This document shows positions 9,101-64,000 of a stretch of DNA of 64,000 nt, piece after piece (positions within the stretch are counted from its first letter, which is position 1; every line of letters starts with the position of its first letter). Under the pieces are notes generated by a model. It was not told the DNA's origin, did no database searches, and worked only from the letters and a program-made list of their open reading frames with translations. The stretch is from Arenicola marina. Its lineage: Eukaryota > Annelida > Polychaeta > Arenicolidae. The translations under genes were made by a program, and so were the position numbers. Location of the stretch: NCBI GenBank assembly GCA_964019135.1, contig OZ025255.1:20995708-21059707 (forward strand), written 5' to 3'.

Positions 9101-9244
9101 ATTTCAATGCAGCTCTTTTTCGTGCTGCGTGAAAATGTCACGCCAATGATGAACGCGTGGAGTTTTATTGTCTACACGCAAGTATGCCAACTGGCGGAAA
9201 CATTCATCTACACATTTGTACCGCGTCTTTGTAACAAGAAGTGA
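6132..9244 (+). CDS. GRL101-type receptor: lectin C-half, LDLa modules, LRRs, 7TM domain
   Basis: Continuation of the receptor. The lectin domain ends with AWIDVPCDRAFDHVMAICE. LDLa modules follow: a complete one with the DGSDE calcium cage (about 6840-6950), others at about 7045-7152 and 7495-7592, and degenerate ones between and after. A Cys-rich LRR N-cap (CPMRCRC, about 7725) leads into about six leucine-rich repeats to 8330. The reading frame then stops at 8381, but the seven-helix domain continues in another frame from about 8345 to the TGA at 9242. A single-base loss (or two-base gain) near 8360-8375 would explain this. Seven hydrophobic segments are visible. The DRY motif is QRM, and the NPxxY region is ETFIYTF, so both classical motifs are altered. 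This is the order found in Lymnaea GRL101 and LGR type C receptors. Ligand unknown; the protein would sit in the plasma membrane. Could be a recent pseudogene or an assembly error. Confidence 0.82.
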
Positions 9245-14333: not shown

Positions 14334-14340
14334 GCAATTT

Positions 14341-19799: not shown

Positions 19800-21290
19800 T
19801 TTATGAGCCTGTAGCTGTGGTCAGGGCTGGTTAGACTTGTCTGCTGGCTCTGGGTGCGAGGATGAGCCTGTAGCTCTGGTCAGGGCTGGTACGACTTGTC
19901 TGCTGGCTCTGGGTGCGAGGATGGGCCTGTAGCTCTGGTCAGGGCTGGTACGACTTGTCTGCTGGCTCTGGGTGCGAGGATGAGCCTGTAGCTATGGTCA
20001 GGGCTGGTACGACTTGTCTGCTAGCTCTGGGTGCGAGGATGAGCCTGTAGCTGTGGTCAAGGCTGGTGCGACTTGTCTGCTAGCTCTGGGTGCGAGGATG
20101 GGCCTGTAGCTGTGGTCAGGGCTGGTACGACTTGTCTGCTAGCTCTGGGTGCGAGAATGAGCCTGTAGCTGTGGTCAAGGCTGGTGCGACTTGTCTGCTA
20201 GCTCTGGGTGCGAGGATTGGCTTGTAGCTGTGGTCAGGGCTGGTACGACTTGTCTGCTAGCTCTGGGTGCGAGGATGAGCCTGTAGCTGTGGTCATGACT
20301 GGTACGACTTGTCTGCTAGCTCTGGGTGCGAGGATGAGCCTGTAGCTGTGGTCAGGGCTGGTACGACTTGTCTGTTGGCTCTTGGTGCGAGGATGGGCCT
20401 GTGGCTGTGGTCAGGGCTGGTACGATATGTCTGTTGGCTCTGGGTGCGAGGATGGGCCTGTGGCTGTGGTCAGGGCTAGTACGATTTGTCTGCTAGCTCT
20501 GGGTGCGAGGATGAGCCTGTAGCTGTGGTCAGGGCTGGTACGACTTGTCTGCTAGCTCTGGGTGCGAGGATGAGCCTGTAGCTCTGGTCAGGGCTGGTAC
20601 GACATGTCTGCTAGCTCTGGGTGCGAGGATGAGCCTGTAGCTGTGGTCAGGGCTGGTACGACTTGTCTGCTAGCTCTGGGTGCGAGGATGAGCCTGTAGC
20701 TCTGGTCAGGGCTGGTACGACATGTCTGCTAGCTCTGGGTGCGAGGATGGGCCTGTGGCTGTGGTCAGGGCTGGTACGATATGTCTGTTGGCTCTGGGTG
20801 CGAGGATGGGCCTGCGGCTGTGGTCAGGGCTGGTACGATATGTCTGTTGGCTCTGGGTGCGAGGATGGGCCTGTGGCTGTGGTCAGGGCTGGTACGATAT
20901 GTCTACTAGCTCTGGGTGCGAGTATGAACCTGTAGCTGTGGTCAGGGCTGGTACGACTTGTCTGCTAGCTCTGGGTGCGAGGATGAGCCTGTAGCTCTGG
21001 TCAGGGCTGGTACGACATGTCTGCTAGCTCTGGGTGCGAGGATGAGCCTGTAGCTGTGGTCAGGGCTGGTACGACATGTCTGCTGGCTCTGGGTGCGAGG
21101 ATGGGCCTGCGGCTGTGGTCAGGGCTGGTACGATATGTCTGCTAGCTCTGGGTGCGAGGATGGGCCTGTGGCTGTGGTCAGGGCTGGTACGATATGTCTG
21201 TTGGCTCTGGGTGCGAGGATGGGCCTGTGGCTGTGGTCAGGGCTGGTACGATATGTCTGCTAGCTCTGGGTGCGAGTATGAACCACGCAT
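19800..21290 (+). repeat. 59-bp minisatellite, about 25 copies
   Basis: Tandem units beginning GATGAGCCTGTAGCTSTGGT and continuing through CAGGGCTGGTACGA and CTCTGGGTGCGAG. The period is 59 bp (for example 19861 to 19920). Copies differ by a few substitutions in subgroups: CTGTAGCTGTGG versus CTGTGGCTGTGG, and CGACTTGTC versus CGATATGTC. Since 59 is not a multiple of 3, open frames through it are accidental. Confidence 0.93.
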
Positions 21291-30685: not shown

Positions 30686-31527
30686 GTGAAACTTCGCCTG
30701 ATCGGTTATGAAGACAGAAGATTAACATCCAAGTTAACTGCAGCCAGGTTTAATATGACATTTATCAAGGAGAATTTGCAACAGAAAACAGAAGTTGAGG
30801 AAACAGGAGCTGATACAGAACTGGACAAATATTGAAACAAGCCTTCATCATCTGAGATGATCCTTCCCGACATCAATGTATTCACCACCTGAACTACAGG
30901 GAGAATTCAGCCAGTCCATCAGCATGATGAACTTAGAGGATATGACACAATCATTTGAACTTGCTTGGACCTTTTTATATCTTTGCTAGTACTTAAATTA
31001 CTAGTTGAACTTCATCGAATGAATTTAAACTGACGTCATTTAGACTAATCTTTAAGATTTCAAGACTTATTCACATAGCTGAGTGTCTGATCATTGGTCA
31101 ATACATTAATTGGCAAGTTGATATCATCTAACAGAACACACTTAGTGTAATAGTGTTACCTGTTGCTACATATTAAGGTATCTTGATATAAATTGTAAAT
31201 ATGTTTTGATGGATTCTTATCGTGAAATGTTCATGACAGTTGGAGTAAGTGACTAATTAAAGGTCACTTTAAGGTTACAGTCTACAATTTTAAGGTCACA
31301 AACATGTGATAGCATAAGTTAATACAGGAATATTAGTATATATTCTGATAAAATATTAATTGAAATATAATATTAATATAAATATGTTATAACTGTCAAG
31401 GTGTGATTAATGAGATATAACTAGAGACTGGTTGGTGTAGACTTGGTTATAAGTAACCAATTGTCCGAGGTTGTCAGAGGTGTATATATACACATAAGTA
31501 TTTTTACTCAGATGAGCACTTGTAAAT
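30686..31527 (+). other. 5' leader of the BEL/Pao element
   Basis: An untranslated leader of about 840 bp, AT-rich. I cannot name the primer-binding tRNA: the bases right after the LTR (GTGAAACTTCGCC) do not show the usual TGG start. Confidence 0.6.
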
Positions 31528-34302
31528 ATGTCTGACGCAAAGGCGAAGGAAGAGCCATGTGATACTATTGAGCATGGTGGAGATGATGAGGTTTTTGAAG
31601 AGTCTGTAACTGATCATGAGGTTCCTATCAAAGAAATGACAGAAACGCAACCTGATGTACATGCCATAGAATTGTCAGAAAAGTTGCCTGATGTCCGTCC
31701 TAAGATATTCACTGAAAGGGGTTTAGCATGGCAAATTGAAACAAGCAAACAAAGATTCAAGACTGCTATATCTCGCTGGAGAAAGTGCTCAAATGAGATA
31801 CAAAGATTGCTGACTGACTCTGACAATGTGGTTGAGTTGAAATTACACCGAAATGCCTTACAACAGGCTATGGACAGTATTATTGAACAATACAATTGGC
31901 TATCTTCTTTGTCTAGTGATCAAGGTGATAGGTTCTACGATACTTATGACCGCATAGAAAGGGAACATCATCAACTCACCAAGGATCTAGCAGAGACCAT
32001 AATTCATTTAAGATCTGAAAGTGATACTATGTCAAGATACTCAGACAAGTCACATAGGAGCAAACAAAGTCGAAAGTCCAATCAGTCTCAAAGTTCGAAT
32101 ATTTCAAGGAAGTTGGAAGCTGCAACGGAAGCAGCAGCCTTGGAAGCAAAGTTACGATATGCAGACATGGAAGCAAAAGGAAAAGCTGAAATAGAGCATA
32201 AGAAAGCGGAATATGAAAGGCTTCAAACGATGAAGGAATTGGATATGGCTAAAGCAAAATTGGATGCAATTGAAAGAATTGAAAGAAATGATTCACTCAA
32301 CTCTTCCAGAGACCCTCAACCTCCTATCAGTAGATCCAGAAACGTTGAGTATACACAAGAATATGTGAACGCTTTGGAAGTAGCTAGTATCATCCCTGAG
32401 ACTAGATTGAATTTAGATGAAGTGAAACAACAGGTGTTGAATGAACAAGTGCAGAGCAGTGGGGATACAGATGTTTTAAATCGACTTGCTAAATTGTTGT
32501 CAAACAAAGGAGATCGCTTGCCCCCAATGGAACCAGAAGTCTTCAGTGGCAGTCTACTTCAATTTCCTATTTGGATCAAGTCATTCGAAGCAATTATCGA
32601 AAAACAAATAGAGGATGCGTCTGAGAGACTTTATTATCTCAGTAAATACACAAGTGGAGAAGCAAAGGAATCAATATACGGTTTCCTCAATCTTGACAAT
32701 ATTCATGCATACACAAGTGCAAAAAACACTTTGAGGAGAAGATATGGGGACAAATACAAAATTGCAGAAGAATACAAGAAGAAGATTGATAACTGGCCAA
32801 CAGTAAGATACGGTGATGGTAATGGACTGCAAAGTTTGTCTGATTTCCTTCATCATTGCGAAGCAGCTATGATGTCGATCAGCTATCTTCGTTGTCTGGA
32901 TGAAGCGGAAACAAATAAGAAACTTGTTCGAAAACTGCCTCGTACCCTTGGCGAACGTTGGAATCGTATCATTGCCAAGTCACTTTACGGCAATGAAGAT
33001 GATCACGGAATAGGGTCTTTTGAAGGATGCTACCCATCATTCGCTGAATTTTGTCGGTTTGTAGCTGATGAAGCTAGAACTGCTTGCTGTCCCGGTAACG
33101 TTAATCTCACTGATACAAAGAAAGATGTTAAAGAGCCTCAAGCATGGATTAGAAACAACAATCAGACTAGAGCTCGGAGCTTCGTTTCACAAACCAGTCA
33201 TCCATCACATGCTGCAGACCCCAGTAATCCAACAAGAGTAGACCACTACGATCAACCGAGATGTATTATGTGTGGAGAGTTACATTCTTTAGGTACTTGT
33301 GAGGAATTTCTCAAGCTGTCAACAACTGACAGGAAGTTGTACGCCCGGAATAACGGTTTGTGCTTTGGCTGTCTCAAAAGAGGACATCTGATTAGAAACT
33401 GCAGGAAGAAATTGCATGGTATATTATTCAAAGATCAGTCTTCACACGAGGAATCTGTAAATGAAGGGCATACTCCTACAAATGAAAATGCCACGTCGTT
33501 CAAGACGAACACTAGTAATATGACGCCTGATGAACAGGACTGTTATCACTCAATGATTGTGCCTGTTGTTTTGCACCACCGTGATCATCCTGAACATCAG
33601 ATAAAGACTTATGCTTTACTCGACAATCAGTCCAGCGCGTGTTTCGTTTCAAGTGACATAATGAAAAGCTTTGACGTATCGTCTGAACCCGTGGATCTGG
33701 AACTCACCACAGTAGCTTCGAAGAGCGTCATCGAAAGTGAGGTGGTTCATGGATTAGTCGTGAGAGGAATAAACAACCAAGAGGAAGTTGCTTTACCAGG
33801 CACGTATACCCGCGAAAGTATACCAACAGAGAGAGGCCTTATTCCAAGACCTGAGACGGTAGGATCATGGCCTCATTTAATTAAGGTTTCACACAAAATT
33901 TCCCCGTTAGATAAAGACTTGGAAGTTGGTTTGTTGATCGGTTTCAACTGTTCAGGTGCTATTATGCCACGTGACGTGATCTGTGCCGAAGACGATGAGC
34001 CATACGCCGTAAGGACGACTCTAGGATGGAGTGTGATTGGTGCTGCCAGACGTCCCAACAAAGGACAGTTTGATACTTCTGCTGGCAAACAAGTACCAAA
34101 TGAAATCAGACGCTGCCATTTTGCATTCAAGACTAATGTGAGAGAAATCAGTTCATCACAAGTTCACCAGATGTTCGATCTAGAATTCCACGAAAGGCTG
34201 AGTTTTGAAAAAAATTCAGTCGAAGATAAATTGTTCTTGCAAAGTTCGCGAAGGAATTTGCCAAAGGGAAGACGGACACTACCAGATACCTCTACCTTTT
34301 AA
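31528..34302 (+). CDS. BEL/Pao Gag and aspartic protease
   Basis: Starts at an ATG after an in-frame stop-rich leader. The N-terminal third is charged and coiled-coil-like (about residues 180-260, rich in A, E, K), as in Pao-type Gag. The middle is the BEL-family capsid-like region (PPMEPEVFSGSLLQFPIWI). A zinc-knuckle zone follows (CIMCGELHSLGTC, then CFGCLKRGHLIRNC). The protease is recognised by YALLDNQSSACFVS: the active-site Asp is kept but the usual DTG/DSG triad reads DNQ. The natural reading crosses into the next frame near 34240; the last 20 or so residues are frame-shifted and not genuine. A +1 shift would be required, either programmed or a mutation. Most BEL elements have a single continuous frame, so I favour mutation. 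Confidence 0.88.
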   Translation: MSDAKAKEEPCDTIEHGGDDEVFEESVTDHEVPIKEMTETQPDVHAIELSEKLPDVRPKIFTERGLAWQIETSKQRFKTAISRWRKCSNEIQRLLTDSDNVVELKLHRNALQQAMDSIIEQYNWLSSLSSDQGDRFYDTYDRIEREHHQLTKDLAETIIHLRSESDTMSRYSDKSHRSKQSRKSNQSQSSNISRKLEAATEAAALEAKLRYADMEAKGKAEIEHKKAEYERLQTMKELDMAKAKLDAIERIERNDSLNSSRDPQPPISRSRNVEYTQEYVNALEVASIIPETRLNLDEVKQQVLNEQVQSSGDTDVLNRLAKLLSNKGDRLPPMEPEVFSGSLLQFPIWIKSFEAIIEKQIEDASERLYYLSKYTSGEAKESIYGFLNLDNIHAYTSAKNTLRRRYGDKYKIAEEYKKKIDNWPTVRYGDGNGLQSLSDFLHHCEAAMMSISYLRCLDEAETNKKLVRKLPRTLGERWNRIIAKSLYGNEDDHGIGSFEGCYPSFAEFCRFVADEARTACCPGNVNLTDTKKDVKEPQAWIRNNNQTRARSFVSQTSHPSHAADPSNPTRVDHYDQPRCIMCGELHSLGTCEEFLKLSTTDRKLYARNNGLCFGCLKRGHLIRNCRKKLHGILFKDQSSHEESVNEGHTPTNENATSFKTNTSNMTPDEQDCYHSMIVPVVLHHRDHPEHQIKTYALLDNQSSACFVSSDIMKSFDVSSEPVDLELTTVASKSVIESEVVHGLVVRGINNQEEVALPGTYTRESIPTERGLIPRPETVGSWPHLIKVSHKISPLDKDLEVGLLIGFNCSGAIMPRDVICAEDDEPYAVRTTLGWSVIGAARRPNKGQFDTSAGKQVPNEIRRCHFAFKTNVREISSSQVHQMFDLEFHERLSFEKNSVEDKLFLQSSRRNLPKGRRTLPDTSTF

Positions 34303-36703
34303 GGAGGACGATGTCTACCTACCTAACAACAAAGCACAGGCGTTAAAGAGATTCGCTGGTCTCAGAACTAGGCTCAAACGGGATCTCAGTTATCAAGCTG
34401 ATTATGTTGCCTTTATGAGGACTCTCATTAACAAAGGATATGCCGAAAAAGTTCCACATGAAGATGTGTCACCTGACAGTGGCAAGATATGGTACCTTCC
34501 ACACCATGGGGTGTATCACCCAAAGAAGCCTGGCAAGATTAGAGTCGTTTTTGACTGCAGTGCGGAATATAAAGAGAGGTCTCTCAATCAACATTTACTA
34601 CAAGGGCCTGATCTGATCAACAGCTTAATCGGAATTCTCTGTCGCTTCCGTCAAGAAGACGTAGCGTTTGTTTGTGACATTGAAAGCATGTTCCATCAGG
34701 TCAGTGTGAGTCCAGAACATAGAAACTTCCTGCGTTTCCTGTGGTATGAGAAGGATCAAATAGAAGATGATCCAGTGGAATACCGAATGACAGCTCATTT
34801 GTTCGGCGCGAGGTCGTCTCCAGGTTGTGTTAATTACGCATTGAAAACGACGGCAAGTCAGTACGAAAACGACTGCGGAAGAGAAGCTGCAGATTTCGTA
34901 AAACGAGATTTTTTTATGGATGATGGTCTCAAATCTGTTGCAACTCCGACAGAAGCACTTCAACCGATACACAGTACTGGTCAAATGTGTGAACATGGAG
35001 GTTTTCGCTTACACAAATATGTTTGCAACAACTTAGAAGTCCTCGGTGCTATACCTATTGAACAGCGAGCGAAAGATGTACAGAATATTGATCTGTTGCA
35101 TGACGAGCTTCCTGTATCTAGAACCCTTGGAGTACAATGGTGCGTTGAAAGTGACACATTTCAATACAGGGTTGAATTACCCAACAAGCCACTTACGAGA
35201 CGTGGGATTCTATCGACCGTATCTTCCGTCTTTGACCCCCTGGGCATTATAGCACCTTTTCTGTTGACAGGCAAAAGGATTCTCCAAGAAATTTGCCGTG
35301 ACAAGTGTGACTGGGACGATCCTATCTCTGATGAGATTCGATTGCAATGGGAGAAATGGAGACAGGATTTATACGTCTTGTCCACGCTCAAGATACCCAG
35401 ATGTGTTAAACCGCTAGGTTTTGGGTCTTTACAGGACGTAGAGCTACATCACTTCTCTGATGCATGTCAAGAAGAATACGGACAGTGCTCATATCTTCGC
35501 ATCGTTGATAATGAGGGAAATACATGTGTTACTCTTGTCATGGGAAAATCTCGTGTCGCTCCATCTAAACAGATGACGATCCCCAGAATGGAGTTGACTG
35601 CAGCAGTCGTAGCTGCCAAAATGAGCACATTCTTAGAAAGGGAATTAGTCTACAGAAATATCTCTCATTATTTCTGGACAGATAGCAGAGTTGTCCTAGG
35701 ATACATAGCAAATGAAGCACGTCGCTTCCACATATTCGTCGCAAACCGGGTGCAGCAAATTCGAGAACACTCAACCGTCGATCAGTGGAACTACATAGAC
35801 ACCAAATCGAATCCGGCTGACTTAGCGTCTCGGAGTCTAACTGCGGAAGAGATCATCCAGAGTCGTTTATGGTGGAATGGACCGGACTTCTTGTCTGCCA
35901 GAGAACTTCATATGACGTCGCCAGATAAACCGCTACTACGTTCGGATGACCCAGAGGTCAAGAAAGCTATCGTACACGCAACATGTGTTGAAGTAGCTAA
36001 AGAACCATGTGATATGCTCGCCAGACTAGAGTATTTTTCGAGCTGGCACCGAGCGAAAAGGGCCGTGGCCCTATGTCTTCGGTTCAAGAACAGACTAATA
36101 GCTCGTACAGTGAAACGAAAGATTGTACCAAAGGCCAATATCGAAGGATACGTACCTGTGACAGTGCAGGAAATGCAATGCGCTGAAAGGGCTATTCTTC
36201 ACATGGTACAGTCAAACTTCTTTACGAAGGAGATCAACACACTTCAGCGAAGTGGGTGTTATGCAAAAAGTCCTTTGGAGGCAAGAAAGCGTCAAGAACA
36301 GATCAAACAGAGCAGTTCTCTCTACAGATTAGATCCATTTCTGAGTGAGGACGGTTTGCTTCGAGTCGGCGGCAGAGTGCGTAGAGCAAACATCCCACGT
36401 GATTTGGCACATCCGGTCATCCTACCGAAACATAGCCACGTTACGCGTCTTGTGATTGAGTACTATCATGTTCGTTCATGTCATTCTGGCAGTTGCACCA
36501 CCTTAAATGAGATCCGCGCAGCAGGATTTTGGATTCTAAAGGCCAGAACGGCAGTGACGTCACGAGTGTGGAAATGTGTGACATGCCGAAAGTTGCGTGG
36601 AGCTACGGCAGGCCAGAAATGGCAGATCTTCCCGAAGATAGACTCGATCCAGCACTCCGTTTACGTATTGTGGCGTAGACTTCTTTGGACCGTTCTACAT
36701 TAA
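34205..36703 (+). CDS. BEL/Pao reverse transcriptase, RNase H and integrase N-terminus
   Basis: Genuine sequence begins near 34240, not at the first ATG. RT blocks: RVVFDCSAEY, the catalytic VCDIESMFHQV, LFGARSSPG and FFMDDGL (the YxDD box as FMDD). The RNase H domain has aspartate in HHFSDACQ, glutamate in MELTAAVVAA, then FWTDSRVVL and NPADLASR. The integrase zinc domain begins at about 36430 (H...H...C..C, the last pair in WKCVTCRKLRG). The frame is lost near 36615-36650, just before the first aspartate of the integrase core, through two closely spaced single-base losses, so this copy cannot make a continuous Pol. Confidence 0.9.
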   Translation: MKKIQSKINCSCKVREGICQREDGHYQIPLPFKEDDVYLPNNKAQALKRFAGLRTRLKRDLSYQADYVAFMRTLINKGYAEKVPHEDVSPDSGKIWYLPHHGVYHPKKPGKIRVVFDCSAEYKERSLNQHLLQGPDLINSLIGILCRFRQEDVAFVCDIESMFHQVSVSPEHRNFLRFLWYEKDQIEDDPVEYRMTAHLFGARSSPGCVNYALKTTASQYENDCGREAADFVKRDFFMDDGLKSVATPTEALQPIHSTGQMCEHGGFRLHKYVCNNLEVLGAIPIEQRAKDVQNIDLLHDELPVSRTLGVQWCVESDTFQYRVELPNKPLTRRGILSTVSSVFDPLGIIAPFLLTGKRILQEICRDKCDWDDPISDEIRLQWEKWRQDLYVLSTLKIPRCVKPLGFGSLQDVELHHFSDACQEEYGQCSYLRIVDNEGNTCVTLVMGKSRVAPSKQMTIPRMELTAAVVAAKMSTFLERELVYRNISHYFWTDSRVVLGYIANEARRFHIFVANRVQQIREHSTVDQWNYIDTKSNPADLASRSLTAEEIIQSRLWWNGPDFLSARELHMTSPDKPLLRSDDPEVKKAIVHATCVEVAKEPCDMLARLEYFSSWHRAKRAVALCLRFKNRLIARTVKRKIVPKANIEGYVPVTVQEMQCAERAILHMVQSNFFTKEINTLQRSGCYAKSPLEARKRQEQIKQSSSLYRLDPFLSEDGLLRVGGRVRRANIPRDLAHPVILPKHSHVTRLVIEYYHVRSCHSGSCTTLNEIRAAGFWILKARTAVTSRVWKCVTCRKLRGATAGQKWQIFPKIDSIQHSVYVLWRRLLWTVLH

Positions 36704-36776
36704 AGAAAATCGCAGTGAGAAGAAGCGATGGGGAGCACTGTATACATGTCTTGCTTCTCGAGCCATTCATATTGAA

Positions 36777-37595
36777 GTGGCTCATTCATTATCCACAGAC
36801 TCCTTTATCAATTCATATCGTAGTTTCGTTGGACGCCGCGGACCAGTTCGGCAACTTCGCTCAGATCGTGGAACTAACTTTGTTGGAGCTAAGAATGAAT
36901 TAGACGCGGCTCTCAGAGAAATGGATCAGCACAAGATTCAACAAGAACTACTAAAAGAAGGCTGCGACTGGGTAGAATTTCGCATGAACGTGCCCCATGC
37001 CAGCCACATGGGTGGAGTATGGGAACGTATGATCTGTTCTGCCAGAACTGTTCTTTCAGCTTTGCTTGATCGCCACGGAACTCAACTGGATGATGAGTTT
37101 CTGAGAACTCTAATGGTAGAAGCAGAAGCCATAGTGAATAGTCGACCGCTCACTTACCCGGATACATTATTTCCTGATTCACATGAGCCATTGACGCCAA
37201 GCCAAATTCTAACACTCAAATCAAAGGTTGTTATGCCTCCCCCTGGGGCATTTGTGAAAGAAGACTTGTATTGCCGAAAGCGATGGAGAAGGATACAGTT
37301 CTTAGCAAATGAGTTCAGGACTCGTTGGAGGCAAGAATACCTCCCAACTCTACAAGAACGGCGCAAATGGACGGCATCACAACCCAATCTAGAAATTGGA
37401 GACATTGTGTTGTTGCTAGACGAAAATGTCCCAAGATGTCAGTGGCCTCGCGCTAGGATTATTGACATATATCTTAGCAGTGACAAACTTGTGCGCAAAG
37501 TCAAGGTTAAAACAGCCTTGTCAACCTTCGAAAGACCCATACATAAACTTGTTCTATTGTATAAACCGGGCAACCCCGACGAGGGAGCCAATTAA
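36777..37595 (+). CDS. BEL/Pao integrase catalytic core and C-terminus
   Basis: The catalytic DDE core: the first Asp sits just upstream in the same frame (CGVDFFG at about 36672), the second is in RSDRGTNF and the Glu in MGGVWERM. The C-terminal part has PSQILTLK and the GDIVLLLDENVPR strand typical of Pao integrases, and ends shortly before the polypurine-like stretch CAGAAATCAGAGGAGC that precedes the 3' LTR. It would insert element cDNA with a 5-bp stagger, which agrees with the TGTAC duplication. Confidence 0.9.
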   Translation: MAHSLSTDSFINSYRSFVGRRGPVRQLRSDRGTNFVGAKNELDAALREMDQHKIQQELLKEGCDWVEFRMNVPHASHMGGVWERMICSARTVLSALLDRHGTQLDDEFLRTLMVEAEAIVNSRPLTYPDTLFPDSHEPLTPSQILTLKSKVVMPPPGAFVKEDLYCRKRWRRIQFLANEFRTRWRQEYLPTLQERRKWTASQPNLEIGDIVLLLDENVPRCQWPRARIIDIYLSSDKLVRKVKVKTALSTFERPIHKLVLLYKPGNPDEGAN

Positions 37596-50834: not shown

Positions 50835-51872
50835 GGACAGGAGGAAGAAGCTCTCCCCTAGATCACCCTGTATATAATTATGTGTGCCGCAAATATGTTT
50901 GCACCCGGTATATATTTGGCGAGATGAGAAATACGAACGGAAAAAAGGAGGATGGTACAGCGTTTATTATCATCAATTTGTACGTGCTCCGCCCGGGCCC
51001 CGCTCTCCCCTAAAACACCTGTGTCCAGCCAATTGGCCTGAAGCAACACAATAACCGTTTGATCGGTTCGCCCTTTCAACCTCCGCTTAATCACTAATCC
51101 CCTCCGCCTAATTGACTACAAACCATCCTAAAACCAAGTCGAAGGGTCTTACAATATTACAAGCAATTGTACCTGAAACCTTTTAGAACCAGTGGTTATC
51201 ATTGGACGTCGGTTAATCGTTACTACACCCAAGGACCAGATGATACACTGAGGACCTGATAGAAATGAATGAGCACACTTAGCGATTACACTATGTGCAC
51301 TGATGACTGAATAGCCGCCATACCACTTCCGAACACCATGCGATGTTTTGGAACATTTGATATATAGTGTTTATGTTTAGCTTTCGATCGCCCCAAACAC
51401 CTATTTATCAAAGTGAAGATATCGTCCATTATCAGACAGTAACAATGTAAGTCTAGGAGTATTGTCAGTGGGTTACATGTGCAGATGTCTCGCTATTGCT
51501 CTCATTATCGCTCAAAATGCGACGTGCCAATCCAGCACTCACTGGGTGCATTTCTATTTACGTTTGTTTGGGCTGAAAGACTTACTTGTTTGCATGCCGT
51601 ACACGAAAATCCAACTTATTTAGTATCCATTTGACCGAGATATATCCACTTCTGTCGAGGGCTGTTATTCAAATGACCAATATCGCCATTTGCGGCCTGC
51701 CGAATTCTCGTCGGCGAACCGAAATCTCGCGCCCGTGGCTGCCAGCCGGGGTGCGAGTAGCCCTGTTCATGGCCTCCAGGCTTGTCCGCTCGCAAGGAGA
51801 CGGGCAGGAGGGCCATGGAGTGCGAGCTCTGGCTAGCACAGGCCAGGGAAGAGCATAGGGATTGCCTGTTGT
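50835..51872. other. Spacer left of the DNA transposon
   Basis: Unique sequence. A GC-rich segment at 51690-51850 is open on both strands, but I recognise no protein. It could be a host exon disrupted by the transposon. Confidence 0.3.
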
Positions 51873-52150
51873 CGTTTGTGTCAGAATAAAAACGTAACAC
51901 TCACCATTTAAACATGTAGTTTCTTGTTCCATATACTTTTGTGAAGCATTCGTCGCTCATTAAAATGTTTGTCACGTTAATCGGCGCATTCATCTATCTT
52001 TCAAAGTGCTTGCTGAAGATTTCAAAGTTTTCTCCTGCCGCCATGATTCGATGCGCATGCGCGTACAAAACCACGTTTCTGTCTCGCGTCGCGCGACTTC
52101 CGCCGTGAACGGTATTTTTGTAAACAAAAGCACATGGTCAAGGTAAACAA
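51873..52150. repeat. Left terminal inverted repeat, 278 bp
   Basis: Starts CGTTTGTGTCAGAATAAAAA and ends CATGGTCAAGGTAAACAA. It contains a CpG-rich part with GCGCATGCGCGTAC and CTCGCGTCGCGCGAC. The helicase start lies 88 bp inside it, so it probably acts as promoter and 5' UTR as well as transposase binding site. Confidence 0.95.
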
Positions 52151-52238
52151 CAACACGTGTAAGCCATTATAAAAGTATTCAACATTATTTGGTCAATCGT
52201 TCATCGTTATCACTTATTTTTTACTGAAATCGTTAAAG

Positions 52239-54997
52239 ATGGATTTTGAAGGTTGTGTCACAACAGTTTTATCTGAATTGCGTGTGCCGTATTCTTTGAA
52301 AGCGGCCCAAAAGGAAGCTTTAGAACTTGTTTGTTCAAAGAAGCAGCACACATTTGTCGTCTTGCCCACTGGTTATGGGAAGAGCGATATTTACGGCCTT
52401 GCCCCGAAGATAATTCAGAAGGTGAGTTAAATATTTCTTGGGGGTTGCTAAGAGAACATACACATGAAGACTGACCATGAGGGGTCCAATCAATGAAAAG
52501 ATATAATTACAAGTAATGGGTTATATGGTAATTGTGAAAACAAGTATGAATTAAACAAATTCTGCTCCACTTTTAGCTTATAGTAATATAGATATATAGA
52601 GAGATCTATATATAAATGATTACAGCATTTGATTTTAACTTAACGATTTTTTAGTTTATCAACATGATGATCTTAATTGCTTAAAAACACAATCTTTTTC
52701 ATCTGTAGCTAAAGGAGGAGCCTGGGGCAAAGGTATTTGTCATCAGCCCCCTCCGTGTTTTGATGACAGACCAAGAGACCCGTTGGCGGGCAATGGGCAT
52801 ACGGTGCTATGTGTTGCGCCAACAGAAGGAAATGTCGGCAGATACCATCAAAGGTTCATATCATTTATTTTTTTCTTCAATGATTTATATTGTGATCACC
52901 AAGAGTCTCCATGCAAGAGTATCAATGTCACAAATGTTCCTGTAGTTATGCTTAGAAAAAAAACCGGATAGATATCAGGACAGTAATTGACATCAATATC
53001 ATTTATGCACTATTCATGAATTATTGATGAATTATTTATACTCGACCACTTCTTGAATGTTACATACTTAATATGCTCATTTGCGCTAACAACCATGTAC
53101 AAATATGAATGCATTGCAGAGGTACAAAATAAAAATGTAAATTCCTTCATTTCAGAGATCGAAGAAGGCAACTGGGACCTGCTTCTCTCCCCTCCTGAGT
53201 GTCTCTCAGTGACCCGGTGGCGCGATGTGCTGAGAAAGCACTACAAGAATATAGCTGTTGTGTGCTTCGACGAGGTGCACTGCCTGATCGACTGGTATGT
53301 ACACTGTATTGCGGCTACTGGTTTTCCTGGTTTCAGTGCAGAATACTAATATGGCAGGCTACTGAAGAATAAATGCTAAATATATAACAGAAGATGAGTC
53401 TCATCGGTATTTTAAGAAGTAAACATGTTCCTTCCTCTTTCTCGATCCCTCTCTCCCCACTCCCTCGCTCTCCGTCCCTCTCTCTCTTTTCCCCCCTTCC
53501 TATCTCTCTCTAACTTGCATATTTTATCAAGTTTGCAATTTAATGTCTCTTTCCACAGGGGGGAGTCCTTTCGACCACAATACGCCCAATCTGCACAAGT
53601 CCGTGGCCTTCTGACCAGTGCCACAGTCCTCCTAATGACCGCCACAGCCACTGTCGAGTTGCAAAAGGCCATCGTGGCTAAGCTGAGCATGCAGCTCGAG
53701 CAATTTAAAACAATTGCACTTGTACCAAACAGGTAAGCAAGTGACATAATATCATTATACATAAAAGCAACATACGTCATAATATATCCTGTGCGTCTTC
53801 TCCAAAGTTAATGAGAGTCCTCGGTACGTACAATGGAACCATTAACTACTCATAGTAACAAGACATGCAGTACACATAGGCTTAATTATAAAAAAAACCT
53901 TGGTTCCTAAGTAGTGTTATTATTTACCGACAGGCCTAACATCTACCTGGATTTGAGTGACAAGAAACCGACGTCAATCAGTGATCTGCGATGGTACACT
54001 GATATACTAAAAGAGCAAACAACGGACAGCCCAAAGTGCATCATCTTTGTAAAGTATGTATGATAAATGTGTTTTTTCTCTTGTACTTTTAAGACAATTT
54101 ACAAGCTAACCAAATACAGATATTTCCGATGTAGCAAGCACAATTAAATGAACTGTTAAATACATAATATAAAAATATTATGTGTATGCCACAACCAGGT
54201 TACTTAATCAGAGGCGCCCAGTTTGTAAATGATGTTATCAGCACTATATTCTATCACATAATACAAACTCGATCACAAGACAGATTCCGAATGCTCACTA
54301 CTGCATTGCACAAGACAATTAATTCGATATACAATAAGCACTTGACTGACTGACCTCGACAGTATTGATGACTACGAGTAAGATGCAAGTTTCGCCAAAC
54401 ATATAACGCTGTTATTTTATGTGTAATAACCTTTTATAATACAGGAGTCAAAACGACATGCTCGAGTTGTTCGAGCATTTCGTGGAAAATCTGGGAAAAC
54501 TCTACTGGCAAGGTCCCGCCGGAGCACCAGGCGACTGCTTGGTAGAGATGTTCTTCGCGCAATTGGATGCGATATCCCAAGTCGAACTCCCAAGTCAGTT
54601 CAAGAAGTCGGACTCGAAATGTCGCTGTCTTATAGCGACCGTAGCCTTCGGAATGGGAGTACAGATACCGGATGTGCAATACATTGTCCACTGGGGTCCA
54701 CCAAAAAACATGCTGGAGTACTGGCAGGAGATTGGAAGGGCCGGCCGTGATGGGCGACAAAGTAAAGCAGTCATGTATCTGCCGCCATACTCCGTCCGGA
54801 AGGACAGGATGGACGAACCATTGCTGGCGTTTGTGGCAAAGAAAGACTGCCTGCGCAAGCTTGCACTGCAGCATCTAAAGGTGGGTCAGGTGACTGACGA
54901 TGATGTCCGCAATTGCTGTGGCGGCGTCGACTGCTGCCGAGTTTGTGCGGATGCGGCCAAGGAGAAGCCAGGTTCGACGGGAGCAGGTCAAGACTAG
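52239..54997 (+). CDS. RecQ-type DExH helicase of the transposon (six exons, 437 aa)
   Basis: ATP-dependent DNA helicase of superfamily 2. Exons: 52239-52421, 52709-52853, 53156-53294, 53559-53732, 53934-54053, 54445-54997. All introns are GT-AG and all phases match (0,1,2,2,2), giving 1,314 nt with the stop. Motifs in order: Q-like PYSLKAAQKEAL, Walker A LPTGYGKS, Ia VFVISPLRVLMTDQ, DExH box CFDEVHCLIDWGESFRP, motif III LLMTATAT, then motifs V and VI IATVAFGMG and YWQEIGRAGRDG. A C-terminal Cys cluster (NCCGGVDCCRVCADAA) resembles the RecQ zinc-binding region; no WH or HRDC domain follows. It is complete, so it may be active. In transposition it could unwind donor ends or help process replication intermediates; this is inference. 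The start is the first ATG after the TIR. Confidence 0.92.
53416..53515 (+). repeat. CT-rich tract in helicase intron 3
   Basis: A long pyrimidine run (CTCTCTCC, CCTCGCTCTCC) about 45 to 140 bases before the acceptor at 53558. It may strengthen splicing or be simple repeat growth. Confidence 0.6.
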
Positions 54998-55008
54998 CCA
55001 AGACTAGT

Positions 55009-58000
55009 CTACACACGTCGCTGACGCTGACGCTCCGCCGTCTCAGCTTGTATGTCCGTGTACATGTCAATGAGGTCGCATTGCCTCCTCAGGTAACGTC
55101 CGAGTTGAAACGGCCTTTGGACTGCCACAGGTGGTATGGCGGGCAAGCCTGGCTCACGCCGGTCTCGGACGAACTTTAGCAGCTGATTGTCCCTGAATGA
55201 GTCAAGGAACTTGACCAGCTGGGCTTTGTTAACGCCCTTGGCGCTGTGATGGGTGTCGTCAGCAAAGTCGCGATCGCACACTGCCGCAGCAAAAAGCCTT
55301 TCGAGCTCCTTGTCATACCCGCCGATCATTTTGGCGCATCGCTCGATCTGCGTCGATGTATAGCGACCACGTGCCGCTTTGATCATCTCTGAAATACGCG
55401 CAGAAGCAATCGATCCTCAGTTTAGTATCATCGTATCAAAGAAATAATTAGTCACTTAAGAGAGTCATTTCTAGCATCGCTGTAGTTGACATTTGACTTG
55501 TATAAGACCTAGACATGTATGTCATCCATCCAAATATTGTATTGCAAATTGTATATATGTACCATGGGCGTTGTGCCCGAAGTACTGAACAAAACATTTA
55601 CTTACTTCCTTCACATACAGGTCAGTAAATGACCTAGTGATCTACCTATTCCCCACTTAAAATATATAGTATACAATGCTATAGCTGCTAGTCAGTGGCA
55701 TGGTTTATGTAAGTTTCAATAAGAACGTTTCGTGAATTTGTACATTACAGATCTATTTGAAAGTAAGGTCACCTTTGAATTGGTTGTTGAGGCATTCATT
55801 TTCCAAGTCCAATCCTTTGTTGCCGCCGGGTGTTCCGCTTTTGTTCACTAGGCGCTCCCAGGTTAGTTCATGGCGTATCCGCTGTGGCATCACGCCGCCC
55901 ACATCTGTTAAACAGAAAATGCAAATGCCATCAATGTGTAATAATGTGCCCGGGATCATCAAGAAATCCCCTGTTATTTACATGTGTTTTTACTTGTAGT
56001 AAAGGGACGGCGACTCAAAATGTAACGCGTATTTAAATTTCTATGTCAAACTGTTCAAGGTGTATATCTTACTGGCAAGGAAGCTATGAGCGATCCTTTT
56101 GTAGTGGGTGTGTCCTCGGCTCCACAGTTGGCCCATGTGAATCTTCCACATGGTCACCAGGGCAGCACCGTCGCCTTCCCGCACCATGTCCCGTCTAGCA
56201 AGATGAGTCAGTCCTTCGTGTAGGAGAGCGAGGTTGTGACTTAGGACCTCGTCGCTCTTGCCGTGTTGACAGATGACAGAACAGTACCACGAGTCTGAAA
56301 TGTCATTTAAGAACAAGTTTTATCACGCATCGAATGCAATTTATGAGAAGCTGGGTGGCTACTGTACGTAATGAAATCGCGGTGAAATAAAAGCATTCCA
56401 CTTGTGTACGCATATATTTGTCTGTGTCACCCACCAGGAATTTGATCCTCTTCTTGACCCACGCAGTCGGGATGATACCACTGGTATCGGGTGCAGTTGT
56501 CTGCAGCCTGGCACTCCACCATCATTTCACCAGGACGCCGCCGCTGGCACGTACAATATATGTACGAGGTGTCATCAGCGCAGGCAGGACTGCAAAACCA
56601 GTCGCCCTCTGGAACATCCTCTAGGGGCGGGCGGAGACACTGGAGGTGGTACCAGCTTCTACCGCAATCCGAGGCGCAACATTGCACCATGGCTCCATCC
56701 CGTTCTATAGTACAATACAAGATATTGTATATGCTTCGAGCTCAATATATGAACCTTGCAAATGCGGATTGTGGCCACTAAACGAGATGCGAGATGATTC
56801 ATAATCCACTGATGTCAATAGAAGCTGTATAGTTTTTATATCGCACAAATGCTACCCTGAAAAAGTTATATGAATGACAACAAATATTTACCTTCGTGAC
56901 ACCAACAGAAGGCGTAAACTTCCACGTCCGTGGCTGCTTCGTAGCCGTATGCTACAGCGCTGACGTCTTCCAAGGGCGGCTTGCGCCAGCACTTGTCCAC
57001 GATGGCTCTTGACATCTTCTCGAGCCATTTGGCCCTGTCCGCAGCGCTCTCCGGCAGATCGTTGGGGACGCTGTCCAAAGAGTCCATACCTTGCAACGAA
57101 CGGGAATATAAGTCAGTATAAGTCAGTATTATTAGTCAAACGGGAATATAAGTCAGTATAAGTCAGTGTGTGGTATTTGAAAGTGCACCCCTCGGAAAAT
57201 TCCGGTTCGATCCTAAGCAGAACGGGAATCAAACTCTGTAATATAGCATTTGTGCCCTTATTTGAAAAAAAAACTGCGATACATAGGTATATCGTAAACG
57301 TCCTTATGCATGATTCATTGTGTTTCTAATCGTGTCGATCAAGACCTTATGTTATTATAGAATTATTATACCGACGTGACCTAAAGTTATGGGTCTAGTA
57401 TGATATAAATGGGGCCACGCGACACAGGCATATTTGGAAAATGGACATCGACACAGATAATGACATTTAAGAAAAAAGAAGGCATTAAGCATAGCGGAAA
57501 AAGAAAATCAAAATTCGACATCGGACACTAGACCTCTCTTTAAGACCCCTTAAATTCCATTTTATCCTGTCTTAAAAATGAACATTTATTTGTCATTGTT
57601 GTTTTGTGCGCGCGCGCGGAAGAGATAAGATGCTTAATTATTCATTCATATAACAATGTAATAACATAACATACACGTAAAATATGAACGTAATAACATA
57701 ACATAACACTAAAATATGAAGCACATGAACTGCAACAACGTAATAACATAGCATAACACGTAAAATATGAAGTCATGAACTGTGACAAGGTAATAAACTA
57801 TAACATCCAGGGGCGACCCGGTGGGAGGGGATGGGTGCTCTCCAAATTTTTGCGGCCGGGGGGGGGGGGGGGTAGTTGCTCCTTGAATGCGACCGGGAGG
57901 GGGATGGAGTGCCTATTTTTCATCAATAAGGGCCATTTGCTAAAAAAAGCTCGACTTTAACAGTGTATGTTCAACTTCCCAAATGGGGGGGGGGTGCAAC

Positions 58001-61000
58001 CCCCATACCCCCCCCTCCCCTGCTTCCGCCCTTAAACATCGTCTTAGATGGTAACACAGAAATGTTAGTAATTAAACGCTTGACTACAGTACTGCACCTG
58101 TCCTGTCTAGAAACTCAAGGAGAACGAGTCCTTGTGTCGTCAACTGAAATAATTTTGCGTGGAAATATTTCTTAACCGAGCATTAATATCAATATATATT
58201 ACTTCACGTATTTCTCCATATCATCGCACACGTCATATAAAGGCACAAGTGTCAGTAGGACATTACACTGTTTACCTCAATCATATGCCGGACGTGTGAG
58301 AAGTTGTCCATAACTTTGGCGTTCACGCGTTTCAGATCCATCTCCTGCTTCACATTGTAGAGTGTGCCTCGCACAGCCGCGCTTTCAGCACTGAAGAACG
58401 TCTTCATAGTGTCCTGCGAAATATAATAAAAAGGAACATATCTACAACCTAATTAGGATAGCTAAACACATATTGTAAATGCAAATACGATGGGAATCTT
58501 TTCTGCAATATAGCGTCTGAGAGATGAAACTTTTCTTAACAATCCAACTTTCACACTTTTCCAATTAAAGGGCTTATATATATTTCATATAGGCGCATTA
58601 TTGCAAACACTTGGTCAACTTCCCTCACTATCTATTTAATTGGTCCTTATAAAGGATACCAGGAAATGTCATTAATTACCTGGAGCAGCAGACCCTCCAT
58701 GTGGAATTCCTGCGGCGTTGGGATGAGGCCGTCCAAGCGCGAGTCGGCGGTTGGTGCCCGGCAACGCCGCTGTTTGGCAGTTCGCATACGGTCTAGGCTC
58801 AGGCCGTCACCGTTGCAAAGGATGGGGAGCACGTGTGCGCCGCGCCGGGGGACATATTCGTGCAAATGTTCCATTATGGTGAGGACTCCTTCTTGGGACG
58901 ACGGGTTGGCGTTGATCACACCCAGGCTGATGACTTCAGACTTCTCCGACATCGCGTCCTGGTAGTCATGGGGCAGGTGTGCATTCCAGGTGATGCTGCT
59001 GATAGCTTCAACAGCACCCACCAAAATGCCTTTGACACAGTGTGTCATGCGTGTCCTGAGGAGATCCTGATCACCAGCCGTGGGCACAAAGGCTGACAAC
59101 GGTAGTGTTCTGGCAAGTGACGTCGTATTGTCCTGAAAAGAGAAAATATAGATAGGATTGATTAAAATATACTACATAAACAAAATACTAATAAAAGGGT
59201 GATTTGGAGACCGACGATGAAAAAATATGTTGCTGGTACATTGGCTAATAATAAAAGGTTGAGAAGTGGAGTTTTGAAACTTGATACAAATTATTAGGAA
59301 CAGTAAAATACTACGAAGAGAAATGTATGCGCCATACGCAATGTCCATCTCATTACCAGGCAGTGAAAACAGTAGCCAGAAAACTAGAATAAATTGGCAT
59401 TCCGTTGAAAGAAAGTTACATTTGGCAGTATAATATAAAAACGGCTTACGGTCAAGTGCAAAGAGCCGGTTCTGTTCTTGGCGGCGAATGCCAGTGCCAT
59501 CAAGTGAAACTTGTTGGCATCCTCTTTGCCTTGGCAATGACTCTCTGTCTCCCACTGTACGTTATCCCAGCACAGGGTGTACGCGTTTCGCTGGTCGAAG
59601 GCCAGTCGCCGTCGAATCTGCACTTGTCTTCGTAAGGCTGTCTGCATAAATGAAAGAGTTTATATCTATATAAATAGTCAATCAATAGCACAGCATACAA
59701 GCTTCGGAAAAAATACAGAATTATCAGTATATATCGAGTTAACCATTGCAAATATATCATTAAAAAAAGAAGTTCTATTCAAGCAAATCAATCGTTCGGC
59801 TGTGCCTGGTTCTACTTACAAAGGCAGTAATTCACACATAGGGTACTTTGGCTTTTGGTGATGTCCATCAACAACTGTGTGGGTATATATATCAAGATGC
59901 AAGGCAAATATTTCACATGCTCTCACCTCGATGTCTGCCTGCCAAATAACCACTGCCTGATCACCCTGTGCCGCCAAAGTATCCACGAGGCTGCGGGCCA
60001 CCCACACAGATTGGCACAGACCAAAGAAGTTCCATCGCCGGAAAATCCTCTGTGTCACGCCCTGACGCCACATTTCCACGGCCATGCACGCCTGGAACCA
60101 TTTATATTTCTGTGGCTTGGCTGAATGCAGGACAACGGACATAAGAAGCCCCTTCCGGGCCACACGTATGGAGTCCGCTTCGTCTATGTCCAGTATCCTT
60201 AGGGAAGAAAGGAAATTAAGACTAAATAATTACTTTATTTACATTATATGTACATATATTCGCTGACTTTATTCCAGTCTTCGAAAGTTAAGTTAAGTTA
60301 ATAATCACGCGTCATTGAATAACTTACGGCGAAAAACTTAAATTTATATTATATATAGCTAATTGTCTACTAATCACAAAGAAGCCAAAAAAGGTTGGCC
60401 TTTGTAACTTTTCCTGAGAATCAAGTGCCGTATAAAATAAAAGGGAAATCTCTAATTAAACTTCTGAAACATATATATACATATATAGCAATGTGACATG
60501 TTTGTAAATATATGCACTTAATACATACCTCTTGGCAGTGCTTCTGCCACGCTGGTAATGCCTACGCATCTGCTCAGCACTGGGAAGCAGTGCATCCACC
60601 GCCGCGTTGACGGAAGGCAGCTTGCCTTTTACCTCCTCTTCCACCTGCTCCCAATGGAAGCGCTGAAGGGAATACAGGGAGAAACGCGCAGACAAGGTAT
60701 CGATGTCTGTGTCAGCTCGTTTAAGCTGCGACATCTCGTTGCGTATCATCCACGCTGCTACATCACGAATAGCTGCCTTTGCTGCCGGAGACTCCTTGAT
60801 GAGTAAACGCAACAGGGCAGGGTATCTGGAGTCCTCCAACAAGTCATGAGCTTGTTCCTGAAATAATAGCGGTTCGTGGTGTATTTTTCATTCTTCATTC
60901 TTCATTCCAAATATGGACGAAAGATGTTTGGCTGAAGACTTTCGTAAGGGCACAAAATGAGCAAATTTGTTATTCGTAAAGAGCACTACCGGTACATATA

Positions 61001-62707
61001 TATGTCAACGACCATGGCAGATAGATATGCTACAGAGAACAAGTTCAAGACAGCAGTACCTTAAAAGATAACCGTCCAACTGGTTCTTCTTCAAAATCTT
61101 CAATGAGGCCTCTAAATTCTGGAGGCTCATCTTCAGGAACGCCTTCTCCAAGTAAGGCAGCATCCACAGGACATTCTTGCCTGTCTGCAGCCTGTATCAA
61201 AAATTGTACAAATGGCTAAGTAAACAGTTTTCTACATCAAACTATACATATCACCAAAAGAATAATTCCATAATTGTCTGATTAAAACCCTTATTTTTTG
61301 TAGACATAGTGATCAACTAATAAAGATTTATTACATACACCTAATACTAAATTTAATGAGGTATCAAGGCACTTATATAGTCTTACTTCTTCAAAGAACA
61401 GCCTATGTTCAGCGGATTCTCCTGTGGCACCAGTCAAACTGGGTTTATCTGTAGTGTCACTGGGGCTTTGTAGAGTATTCCTATGACCTGCAAATGGGTG
61501 ATATCATACAAAAGTGTGACTAATGTTTGTACTTCATGCCATCATGCAATAAGATGCATCTTTCAATAATACAAGTCATTAAAAAACAGTGTCAGTTGAC
61601 AGTATTAACTGTAGATCAGATATTGTTGCAATTGAATCAAACCCAGTATTGTTACAAGTATACATACCTAGGCATGGGTAGACTTAATTGATCATATATA
61701 GCTATCATTATGTTCTAATGCATACAAAAAATGGCATTATTATTAAAGTTACAGACCTTCAACATGGGTTTACAGATATAGATTACATATAATGATTCTT
61801 AATTAATTGCTATTGACTGTTGTGTACCAACCTTCATCTCCAAGACTTATGCAGCTATCAGGGGTATTCCGTTGATCTGGTTTCTGTCAATGGTAAATCA
61901 AATAATTGATCAGATATCCTTCACTTAAGAAACAATCATAACAACTACTTCACAGTTAAGTTATGTAGCCTGAAGGTTCAGACGTTACAATTTGACAGTC
62001 TGATGATGTACTGTAATGTTCAGATGTTACAGTTTTGACAGTTTGATGCAGACTGTCAAACTGTAATATCTGAACATTCAGGCTAGATTATGGTACATAT
62101 CTTACATTTCACTTACAGCATATTTTTGAAATAAAAATCAGCATATTTTTGAAATAAAAATCAGCATATTTTTGAAATAAAAATGAGCATATTTTTGAAA
62201 TAAAAATGAGCATATTTTTGAAATAAAAATTAGCATATGTTTTAATTAAAAAGCATATATTATATATGAGGGAAGATATGTCTGGGACCAACTGTTTCAG
62301 CCCCAGTTACCCAAGTTTGATTTAGGTGGAGGGGGGGGGGGGGTAGAGGGATGCACTTATCCCTAGAGAAGTTCAATAACACTTATTAAGGAAGAATGCC
62401 CCTCTCCCTCAAGGTCGCCCCCCCCCCCCCTGATATGAATACATACCTTAGAGCCTTTTGTCAGAGGGGTTGTTGCTGGTCTTTTTTTCGTGAACCGATA
62501 TTTTGATCGCCTGTCCTTCTTCCCTACAGCTTGTCGCAGGCGGCCCAGACAATCGTAGCAACAGAAGCCATTCAGGCTACGAACATGTGGAAATACAACG
62601 CGTGCTGTCACAGGAGTTGTCACCTTCAATAATGTGTAACGATTAAAGTTTCGTCCGGTCTTCACAGAAATATCTTGATTACAAGTGACACAAACTTGTG
62701 GAGACAT
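55009..62707 (-). CDS. Academ-type transposase with zinc motif and tandem PHD fingers (at least 14 exons)
   Basis: Exons on the minus strand, in order: 62707-62447, 61883-61832, 61487-61387, 61191-61060, 60857-60529, 60197-59927, 59641-59450, 59132-58680, 58413-58276, 57089-56892, 56704-56435, 56294-56073, 55904-55773, 55388-55009; about 1,040 aa. All junctions are GT-AG and in phase except 58276 to 57089 (phase 0 to 1), where an exon is probably missing. N-terminus: CVTC...CCYDC zinc motif. Exon 7 has CWDNVQWE (likely first Asp), exon 8 CNGDGLSLDRM (second Asp). Exons 10-12 encode two PHD fingers (YAFCWCHEG...WFCSPAC and IYCTCQRR...WYCSVIC). Exon 13 has LTWERLVNKSG and LDLENECLNNQFK (likely Glu). 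DN, GD and D..E motifs and the RLDGLIPTPQEFH context fit DUF6589/Academ transposases. The catalytic assignments are inference. Confidence 0.85.
56073..57089 (-). other. Tandem PHD fingers within the transposase
   Basis: Three exons encode two C4HC3-type fingers. The first has the C-x-C pair in CWCHEG, then CCASDC, WYHLQC and WFCSPAC. The second has IYCTC, ECQAADNC, WYHPDC and WYCSVIC. PHD fingers usually read histone H3 tails. Position: after the second acidic motif and before the glutamate motif, that is, as an insertion within the catalytic fold. Confidence 0.85.
57090..58275 (-). other. Long transposase intron with repeats and a MITE
   Basis: Contains direct repeats of GGGAATATAAGTCAGTATAA at about 57104 and 57141, a tandem of GTAATAACATAACATAACAC-like units at about 57655-57790, an alternating GCGCGC run at 57608-57617, and a hAT-like MITE. 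Flanking exon phases disagree (0 then 1), so an exon of 3n+1 bases may be lost or unrecognised here. Confidence 0.6.
57810..58034. mobile_element. hAT-like MITE, copy 3, diverged
   Basis: Left end CAGGGGCGACCCGG, right end CTTCCGCCCTT, with G runs and C runs inside and the word TAACAGTGTATGTTCA (inverse of GAACATACACTGTTA in copies 1 and 2). Flanks TAACATC and AAACATC are similar. It lies in an intron of the transposase gene. Confidence 0.6.
61966..62095. mobile_element. 130-bp inverted-repeat MITE-like segment in transposase intron 1
   Basis: The outer 37 bases at each side are inverses with few mismatches (TAGCCTGAAGGTTCAGACGT versus the inverse of the right end TAGCCTGAATGTTCAGATAT, then TTGACAGTCTG). 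No coding capacity. Confidence 0.7.
62118..62235 (+). repeat. 22-bp tandem repeat in transposase intron 1
   Basis: About five to six copies of GCATATTTTTGAAATAAAAA. The period is about 22 bases. It gives a spurious minus-strand peptide. Confidence 0.9.
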
Positions 62708-62758
62708 ACTACTGGAGATAGAAGCACAAGTCCTTCGATTTCACCATGGCCATTTGTT

Positions 62759-63036
62759 TTGTTTACCTTGACCATGTGCTTTTGTTGACAAAAATGCCGT
62801 TCACGGCGGAAGTCGCGCGACGCGAGACAGAAACGTGGTTTTGTACGCGCATGCGCATCGAATCATGGCGGCAGGAGAAAACTTTGAAATCTTCAGCAAG
62901 CACTTTGAAAGATAGATGAATGCGCCGATTAACGTGACAAACATTTTAATGAGCGACGAATGCTTCACAAAAGTATATGGAACAAGAAACTACATGTTTA
63001 AATGGTGAGTGTTACGTTTTTATTCTGACACAAACG
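62759..63036. repeat. Right terminal inverted repeat, 278 bp
   Basis: Inverse of 51873-52150 with about two differences. The transposase ATG at 62707 lies 52 bp inside it, so each TIR seems to serve as promoter of the gene next to it. Confidence 0.95.
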
Positions 63037-64000
63037 TCAAAATATATCTAATATGAATAGACATTGCCTAAGTTGCGAGCTCACCCAAATAAAAAAAAAA
63101 TAAAGGCCTAGCTCTTAAAGCTGCTGTATCAACGGCAGCAGCCAGCTGTCCTAATCTTATAGGTTTCTAGACAACTAGACTCAAAACCAATACAGGTATA
63201 GTTGGTTTGAGGTTGAGTTAGCTTGGGGTCGAGTTGGCTTGGGGTTGAGTAGGTGATGGGTCGGGCATGTCGTGGGTCGAGTTGACTAGATGCCGTCTTA
63301 TATCTGCTGTATTAGCTGAAGTAGTTTATATTCTTAAAACTACCTGTACTGAAATATCTTATTTAAGTTATAGAACTGATATTTTTATCTATTTGTTTTA
63401 ATTAAAAATAAGATGGATGGCTTAGTTGTTTAACGGTAATATTTGGGCTTAAAGTCATATATGCAGAGAAATACAAAAATAAGTAGTTGCTTGAGTCTAT
63501 AATTAATCATATTAGATCTATTTTATGATAATTAATATCTTATTCATTTTTTTTCCTTTTGCTAAAATTATATATAGGTTGATGAGATATTTTTAAATCA
63601 AGTTTATACCTGGTCATAGATTTATAGCAATCTATACCTATCTATGTACCAGGTATATGTTCATAAAAAAGCTAAATATGGCAAACAAAAATTGATGACA
63701 ACATGTCCATAAATATTTCTATTTATATTAGAAGGACTTTAATAGATCTATATCATTTCTATTAAAACTATTTTCGAAGGTAACTCCTTCATGAAAAACA
63801 TATTTTCATTGCCTGTTGTGACCTATCCATGAGAACAGATACTGAACAATTGCTAAATACACCATGAGTAAGCTTCTTGAACACTCACACCATGTCAGAA
63901 GTATGTTTTATCATCATCCTTCTTCTTCTACCATTCTAGCAATCTATAACATGTTTTATAGCAGGCTTTACGCGGTTGTGACCTGTCCATGAGAACATAT
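63037..64000. other. Flank right of the DNA transposon, no gene
   Basis: AT-rich. 63190-63285 holds degenerate repeats of GGGTTGAGTTGGCTTG-like words. Near the end GTGACCTRTCCATGAGAACA occurs twice (63819-63838 and 63977-63996), a short direct repeat about 158 bases apart. Confidence 0.45.

Follow-up and report, generated by a model that had tools for sequence, protein, structure and literature searches.

A stretch of 64,000 nucleotides from the lugworm Arenicola marina (the window; positions 20,995,708 to 21,059,707 of contig OZ025255.1, assembly GCA_964019135.1) contains an element in which a helicase gene on the + strand and a transposase gene on the - strand meet tail to tail between long terminal inverted repeats (TIRs). 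This element is very probably an AcademH-type DNA transposon, AcademH being a group reportedly due to Kojima in 2020, with a transposase and a RecQ-type helicase arranged tail to tail between long TIRs that end in TAGCCCTG.

The helicase gene (52239-54997) comprises six exons joined by GT-AG introns and encodes 437 amino acids without an internal stop (Table 1). A protein family scan of the product reports DEAD and Helicase_C, with neither RQC nor HRDC among the families reported in that scan. The NCBIfam model recQ_fam is matched with an expectation value (E) of 9.4e-59 and the structure matches are to WRN, RecQ and BLM, which bears out the complete six-exon RecQ-type helicase proposed in a first-pass annotation of the window. 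In a 25-row tree (the window protein and 24 hand-picked from 120 listed), the window helicase groups with P0005, P0006, P0008 and P0009, Patella and Mya among them, with support of 98/90, and this group stands apart from eight rows, four of which are named bacterial. Just 11 bases (54998-55008) lie between the stop codon of the helicase gene and that of the convergent transposase gene, such that the 3' ends of the helicase and transposase transcripts must overlap.

The transposase gene runs from 62707 to 55009 and consists of 15 exons with GT-AG introns, encoding 1058 amino acids without an internal stop. Exon 10, of 46 nt, fills a stretch that the homologue alignment showed to be missing; thus the gene, previously described as multi-exon and near-complete, is indeed multi-exon, but complete. 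The protein carries DUF6589 (E 3e-30), with PHD fingers located inside the span of that match, as seen in a scan run on a 1045-amino-acid version of the transposase. Homologues are found in amphioxus, sea star, bivalve and acorn worm. DUF6589 proteins of Branchiostoma, Patiria and Mya (P0001-P0004) share 31-39% identity over 53-81% of the transposase, and residues D408, D555 and E588, a candidate D-D-E triad of an RNase H fold, are conserved in the homologue alignments. A profile search against the Protein Data Bank returned matches in the PHD region only, a search of viral contigs found no relative, and none of the papers searched mentions DUF6589. We note that one transposase intron harbors a G-rich dispersed repeat (57800-58040) that matches stretches of the window at about 16.8-16.9 kb and 21.8 kb.

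Table 1. Positions of the element's features and its immediate flanks in the window.
Feature	Position	Strand	Evidence
Left flank, dispersed repeat RepY, halts at the element's first base	51569..51757	.	genome matches
Left outer arm, terminus 5'-TAGCCCTGTT, possible hairpin ~51768-51817	51758..51872	+	homology start at TAGCCCTG, folds
Left TIR core, 278 bp	51873..52150	+	276/278 with 62759-63036
Helicase exon 1, Walker A PTGYGKS	52239..52421	+	
Helicase exon 2	52709..52853	+	
Helicase exon 3, DEVH	53156..53294	+	
Helicase exon 4	53559..53732	+	
Helicase exon 5	53934..54053	+	
Helicase exon 6 with stop, QEIGRAGRDG motif, short Cys-rich tail	54445..54997	+	
Transposase exon 15 with stop	55009..55388	-	
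Transposase exon 14	55773..55904	-	
Transposase exon 13	56073..56294	-	
Transposase exon 12, PHD fingers	56435..56704	-	domain scan
Transposase exon 11	56892..57089	-	
Transposase exon 10, 46 nt	58098..58143	-	homologue alignment
Transposase exon 9	58276..58413	-	
Transposase exon 8, DUF6589, GDGLS and PQEFH motifs	58680..59132	-	domain scan
Transposase exon 7, WDNVQ motif	59450..59641	-	homologue alignment
Transposase exon 6	59927..60197	-	
Transposase exon 5	60529..60857	-	
Transposase exon 4	61060..61191	-	
Transposase exon 3	61387..61487	-	
Transposase exon 2	61832..61883	-	
Transposase exon 1, start codon at 62707	62447..62707	-	
Right TIR core, 278 bp	62759..63036	-	276/278 with left core
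First bases of right outer arm, cut here by RepX	63037..63047	-	
RepX, high-copy repeat in right outer arm, continues to window-equivalent 64974	63048..64000	.	

Element ends and relatives in the genome

Relatives were sought in the 867-Mb assembly that holds the window, from which all L- and C-named loci derive. At least 53 transposase matches (43 of 707 candidates scored) and at least 103 helicase matches (96 of 560 scored) were obtained, which collapse to at least 37 and 89 loci, respectively; related loci are numerous, and the helicase is not a lone host gene. Among the matches listed, 22 of the 37 transposase loci, counting that of the window, have a convergent helicase no more than 10 kb away. 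Target duplications of 9 bp are perfect (9/9) at three insertions, namely L019/L020, C8el and C10el, and match at 8/9 positions at L021, a deletion derivative that lacks the middle of the element; the duplications at relatives, GGTGTGCTC, GGGAGTTAC and CACATATAC, are not TTAA. L019 and L020, which lie ~130 kb apart on contig C3, represent one insertion present twice, in opposite orientation and with matching flanks, owing to an inverted regional duplication. L022 and L023, ~284 kb apart on C6, are 99% alike, and L051 (C11) has no long TIR pair within its 9 kb.

The two 278-bp TIR cores are identical at 276 positions, in agreement with the two or so mismatches noted before, and thereby provide the window element with the inverted repeats that are a feature of AcademH. 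The homology with other copies begins at TAGCCCTG, ~111-115 bp outside the 278-bp TIR, which in the window corresponds to base 51758. The element therefore extends beyond the span 51873..63036 initially assigned to it: its left end lies 115 bp further out, and its right end falls outside the window, on the far side of inserted repeats. RepY, which abuts the left terminus, is present at at least 13 other places at 96-98% (best 40 of 523 candidates).

On the right side, the arm is broken 11-12 bp beyond the core by the 1.9-kb repeat RepX (L054 1479-3405), after which ~50 bp of transposon outer arm resume before a further repeat, RepZ. Since the arm resumes and TCAAAATATATCTA is present on both sides of RepX, RepX has been inserted into the arm. 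RepX is a young high-copy repeat, with at least 40 places, the window's own included, matching the flank at 98-100% (best 40 of 654 candidates); an open frame of 120 codons is absent from L057, the single copy inspected. RepZ, likewise a young high-copy repeat, begins outside the window at ~L054 3463 (window-equivalent ~65032) and truncates the right arm; it occurs at at least 39 other places at 96-100% (best 40 of 191 candidates), with starts at 3454-3474, mostly 3462-3464. Window-equivalent 65078 was considered as the right terminus, with a target duplication matching at 6/10 positions, but was withdrawn because these predominant starts place that stretch within RepZ, and decay of the right end by mutation was rejected as the RepX insertion explains the break. 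Neither the outermost ~57 bp of the right arm nor the target duplication was found. A genome search with the joined flanks, which are two different repeats, gave no contiguous match to an empty site (best 40 of 339 candidates).

Elsewhere, the window contains reading frames of a Pao-type long terminal repeat retrotransposon (31516-37595; DUF1759, Peptidase_A17, DUF5641), a reverse transcriptase (RVT_1) resembling those of long interspersed nuclear elements (11573-14339, - strand) and a tandem array of 25 copies of a 59-bp unit (19803-21281). Frames with LDL-receptor A and leucine-rich repeats (6099-9244) are followed by a hydrophobic frame without a Pfam match that may be part of a seven-helix receptor.

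Repeat cores, outer arms and the age of the insertion

The history of the TIR cores was read from private changes at the 216 alignment columns in which every other row is in agreement; these rows (n=7) come from L019, L020, L021 and L022, which represent three independent insertions, with L023 and more distant copies excluded. The window cores have 22 private changes common to both and only two that are one-sided, whereas no shared private changes are found in L021 (16 one-sided) or L019 (6 one-sided). The outer arms beside the cores are less alike, with 41 identical, 6 mismatched and 14 gap columns between left and right compared with 276 identical and 2 mismatched in the core (Fisher p 1.5e-4, gaps not counted); this comparison was made without the RepZ stretch, which an earlier outermost-end profile of the window had included. 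From the 22 shared versus two one-sided changes, together with the less alike arms, it follows that the cores were homogenised, and the alignments thus indicate that they overwrote one another within the element. Either gene conversion between the inverted repeats or a template switch during repair of the gap could be responsible; the 14 sites diagnostic of a conversion donor give a mixed signal. Because the cores are homogenised, TIR identity cannot date the insertion and is no clock for the window element. A similar pattern is seen at C8el and C10el, where the cores are identical at 249/250 (1 gap column) and 196/197 positions (11 gap columns), respectively, and the outermost 50 bp have diverged between the ends. 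The TIRs of L021 are 88% alike.

A genome search with the central 3.2 kb gave no copy besides that of the window (26/26 candidates scored). The nearest relative in hand is L021, with a synonymous divergence (dS) of 0.16 for the transposase (554 codons) and 0.21 for the helicase (109 codons), and ratios of nonsynonymous to synonymous divergence (dN/dS) of 0.31 and 0.28 over the same codons.

One type of outer arm is located on the helicase side in the window and C10el and on the transposase side in L019 and L021. Such differences in side among copies may have arisen by inversion of the interior through recombination between the TIRs. When 15 ends were folded, nine had a stem whose anchor, 11-12 bases in from the terminus, is CATGGC or nearly so (simple shuffles), with several different stem sequences at this anchor, and dinucleotide shuffles left five of eight ends with z -2.8 or lower; both sets include the withdrawn RepZ-containing end, winR. 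The left end of the window element is unremarkable in this respect (z -0.97), and the evidence for a subterminal hairpin in these ends is suggestive only. It is a tentative and rather doubtful generalization that the TIR cores of full-length AcademH elements undergo concerted evolution inside each element, with outer arms that differ between the ends and a hairpin whose shape, though not its sequence, is retained. If true, this would point to a cycle of transposition or of gap repair in which one core is copied over the other, perhaps under the drive of the RecQ helicase that the element encodes, and gene-less deletion derivatives such as L021 would stop homogenising. Were the pattern general, a comparison of full-length elements with deletion derivatives would show whether the element's enzymes help to copy one end onto the other.

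Classification, mechanism and comparison with known elements

The near identity of the TIRs and the intact helicase motifs led the first-pass annotation to a very young copy with current or very recent activity, in which TIR identity would stem from a recent jump; the absence of stops from both genes also speaks for this. We consider such a young, currently mobile insertion improbable, as the private changes reveal homogenised cores, the central region is found in one copy only with no near-identical copy, RepX and RepZ interrupt the right arm, and no target duplication was found for the window copy. Neither its youth nor current activity is thus supported, although the intactness of both genes leaves some room for a young age. 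Intact frames and dN/dS near 0.3 would also fit a host gene pair tamed from a transposon, but the same ratio is expected from selection on transposase lineages, and with the pair lying between TIRs with a typical left terminus, and similar pairs present at many loci, this origin is scarcely credible. According to an excerpt of PMC9587614, KolobokH also carries a RecQ helicase. Nevertheless, membership in a different superfamily whose elements bear a helicase, such as KolobokH, is very improbable for the window element, given the 9-bp duplications at the relatives in place of the TTAA target of Kolobok elements.

The AcademH assignment has points against it as well. The recQ_fam score of 199.4 falls below the curated cut-off of 219.8, the target duplication at L033 matches at just 6/9 positions, and that of the window copy itself was not found, its right end being cut. 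Among the matches listed, 15 of the 37 transposase loci have no convergent helicase seen within 10 kb, five having a helicase in another orientation and ten none seen. In addition, the DDE fold is without a usable model, since the AlphaFold model of the homologue P0002 is poor, with a mean predicted local distance difference test score (pLDDT) of 48. The AcademH-like nature proposed at the outset is sustained by the RecQ-type helicase, the recurrent convergent pairs and the 9-bp duplications at relatives. That the element works like AcademH is well supported at the level of sequence, by gene content, TIRs and target duplications and not by phylogeny. It is a new family within an already known transposon type, with AcademH compared by description. 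It offers a complete transposase-helicase pair from a transposon group that has received little study, and relatives within this genome reveal the ends and target duplications.

We suggest that the transposase would bind the element ends and cut the element out, and that joining of the excised element to a staggered target cut would generate the 9-bp duplications. The probable part of the helicase is to unwind DNA, either at the ends or while the gap is repaired, and that of the PHD fingers is probably to keep the complex attached to chromatin. Judging from its reading frames, the window copy could probably supply these enzymes in trans; it is probably defective in cis and unlikely to move itself, current mobility being unlikely because the right end is broken.

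The likeness to KolobokH, as far as the excerpted source describes it, consists in a RecQ helicase within a DNA transposon. AcademX, of the same superfamily by name, is said in the excerpted descriptions to encode a nuclease and to make duplications of 3 or 4 bp, whereas the window element encodes a helicase and its relatives have 9 bp; the domain scan, which covered the two element proteins only, reported no nuclease family. AcademH, for which the excerpt of PMC10045372 gives target duplications of 9 or 10 bp, has in common with the element a transposase together with a RecQ-type helicase, TIRs and, at the relatives, 9-bp duplications (excerpts of PMC10045372 and PMC10799480).
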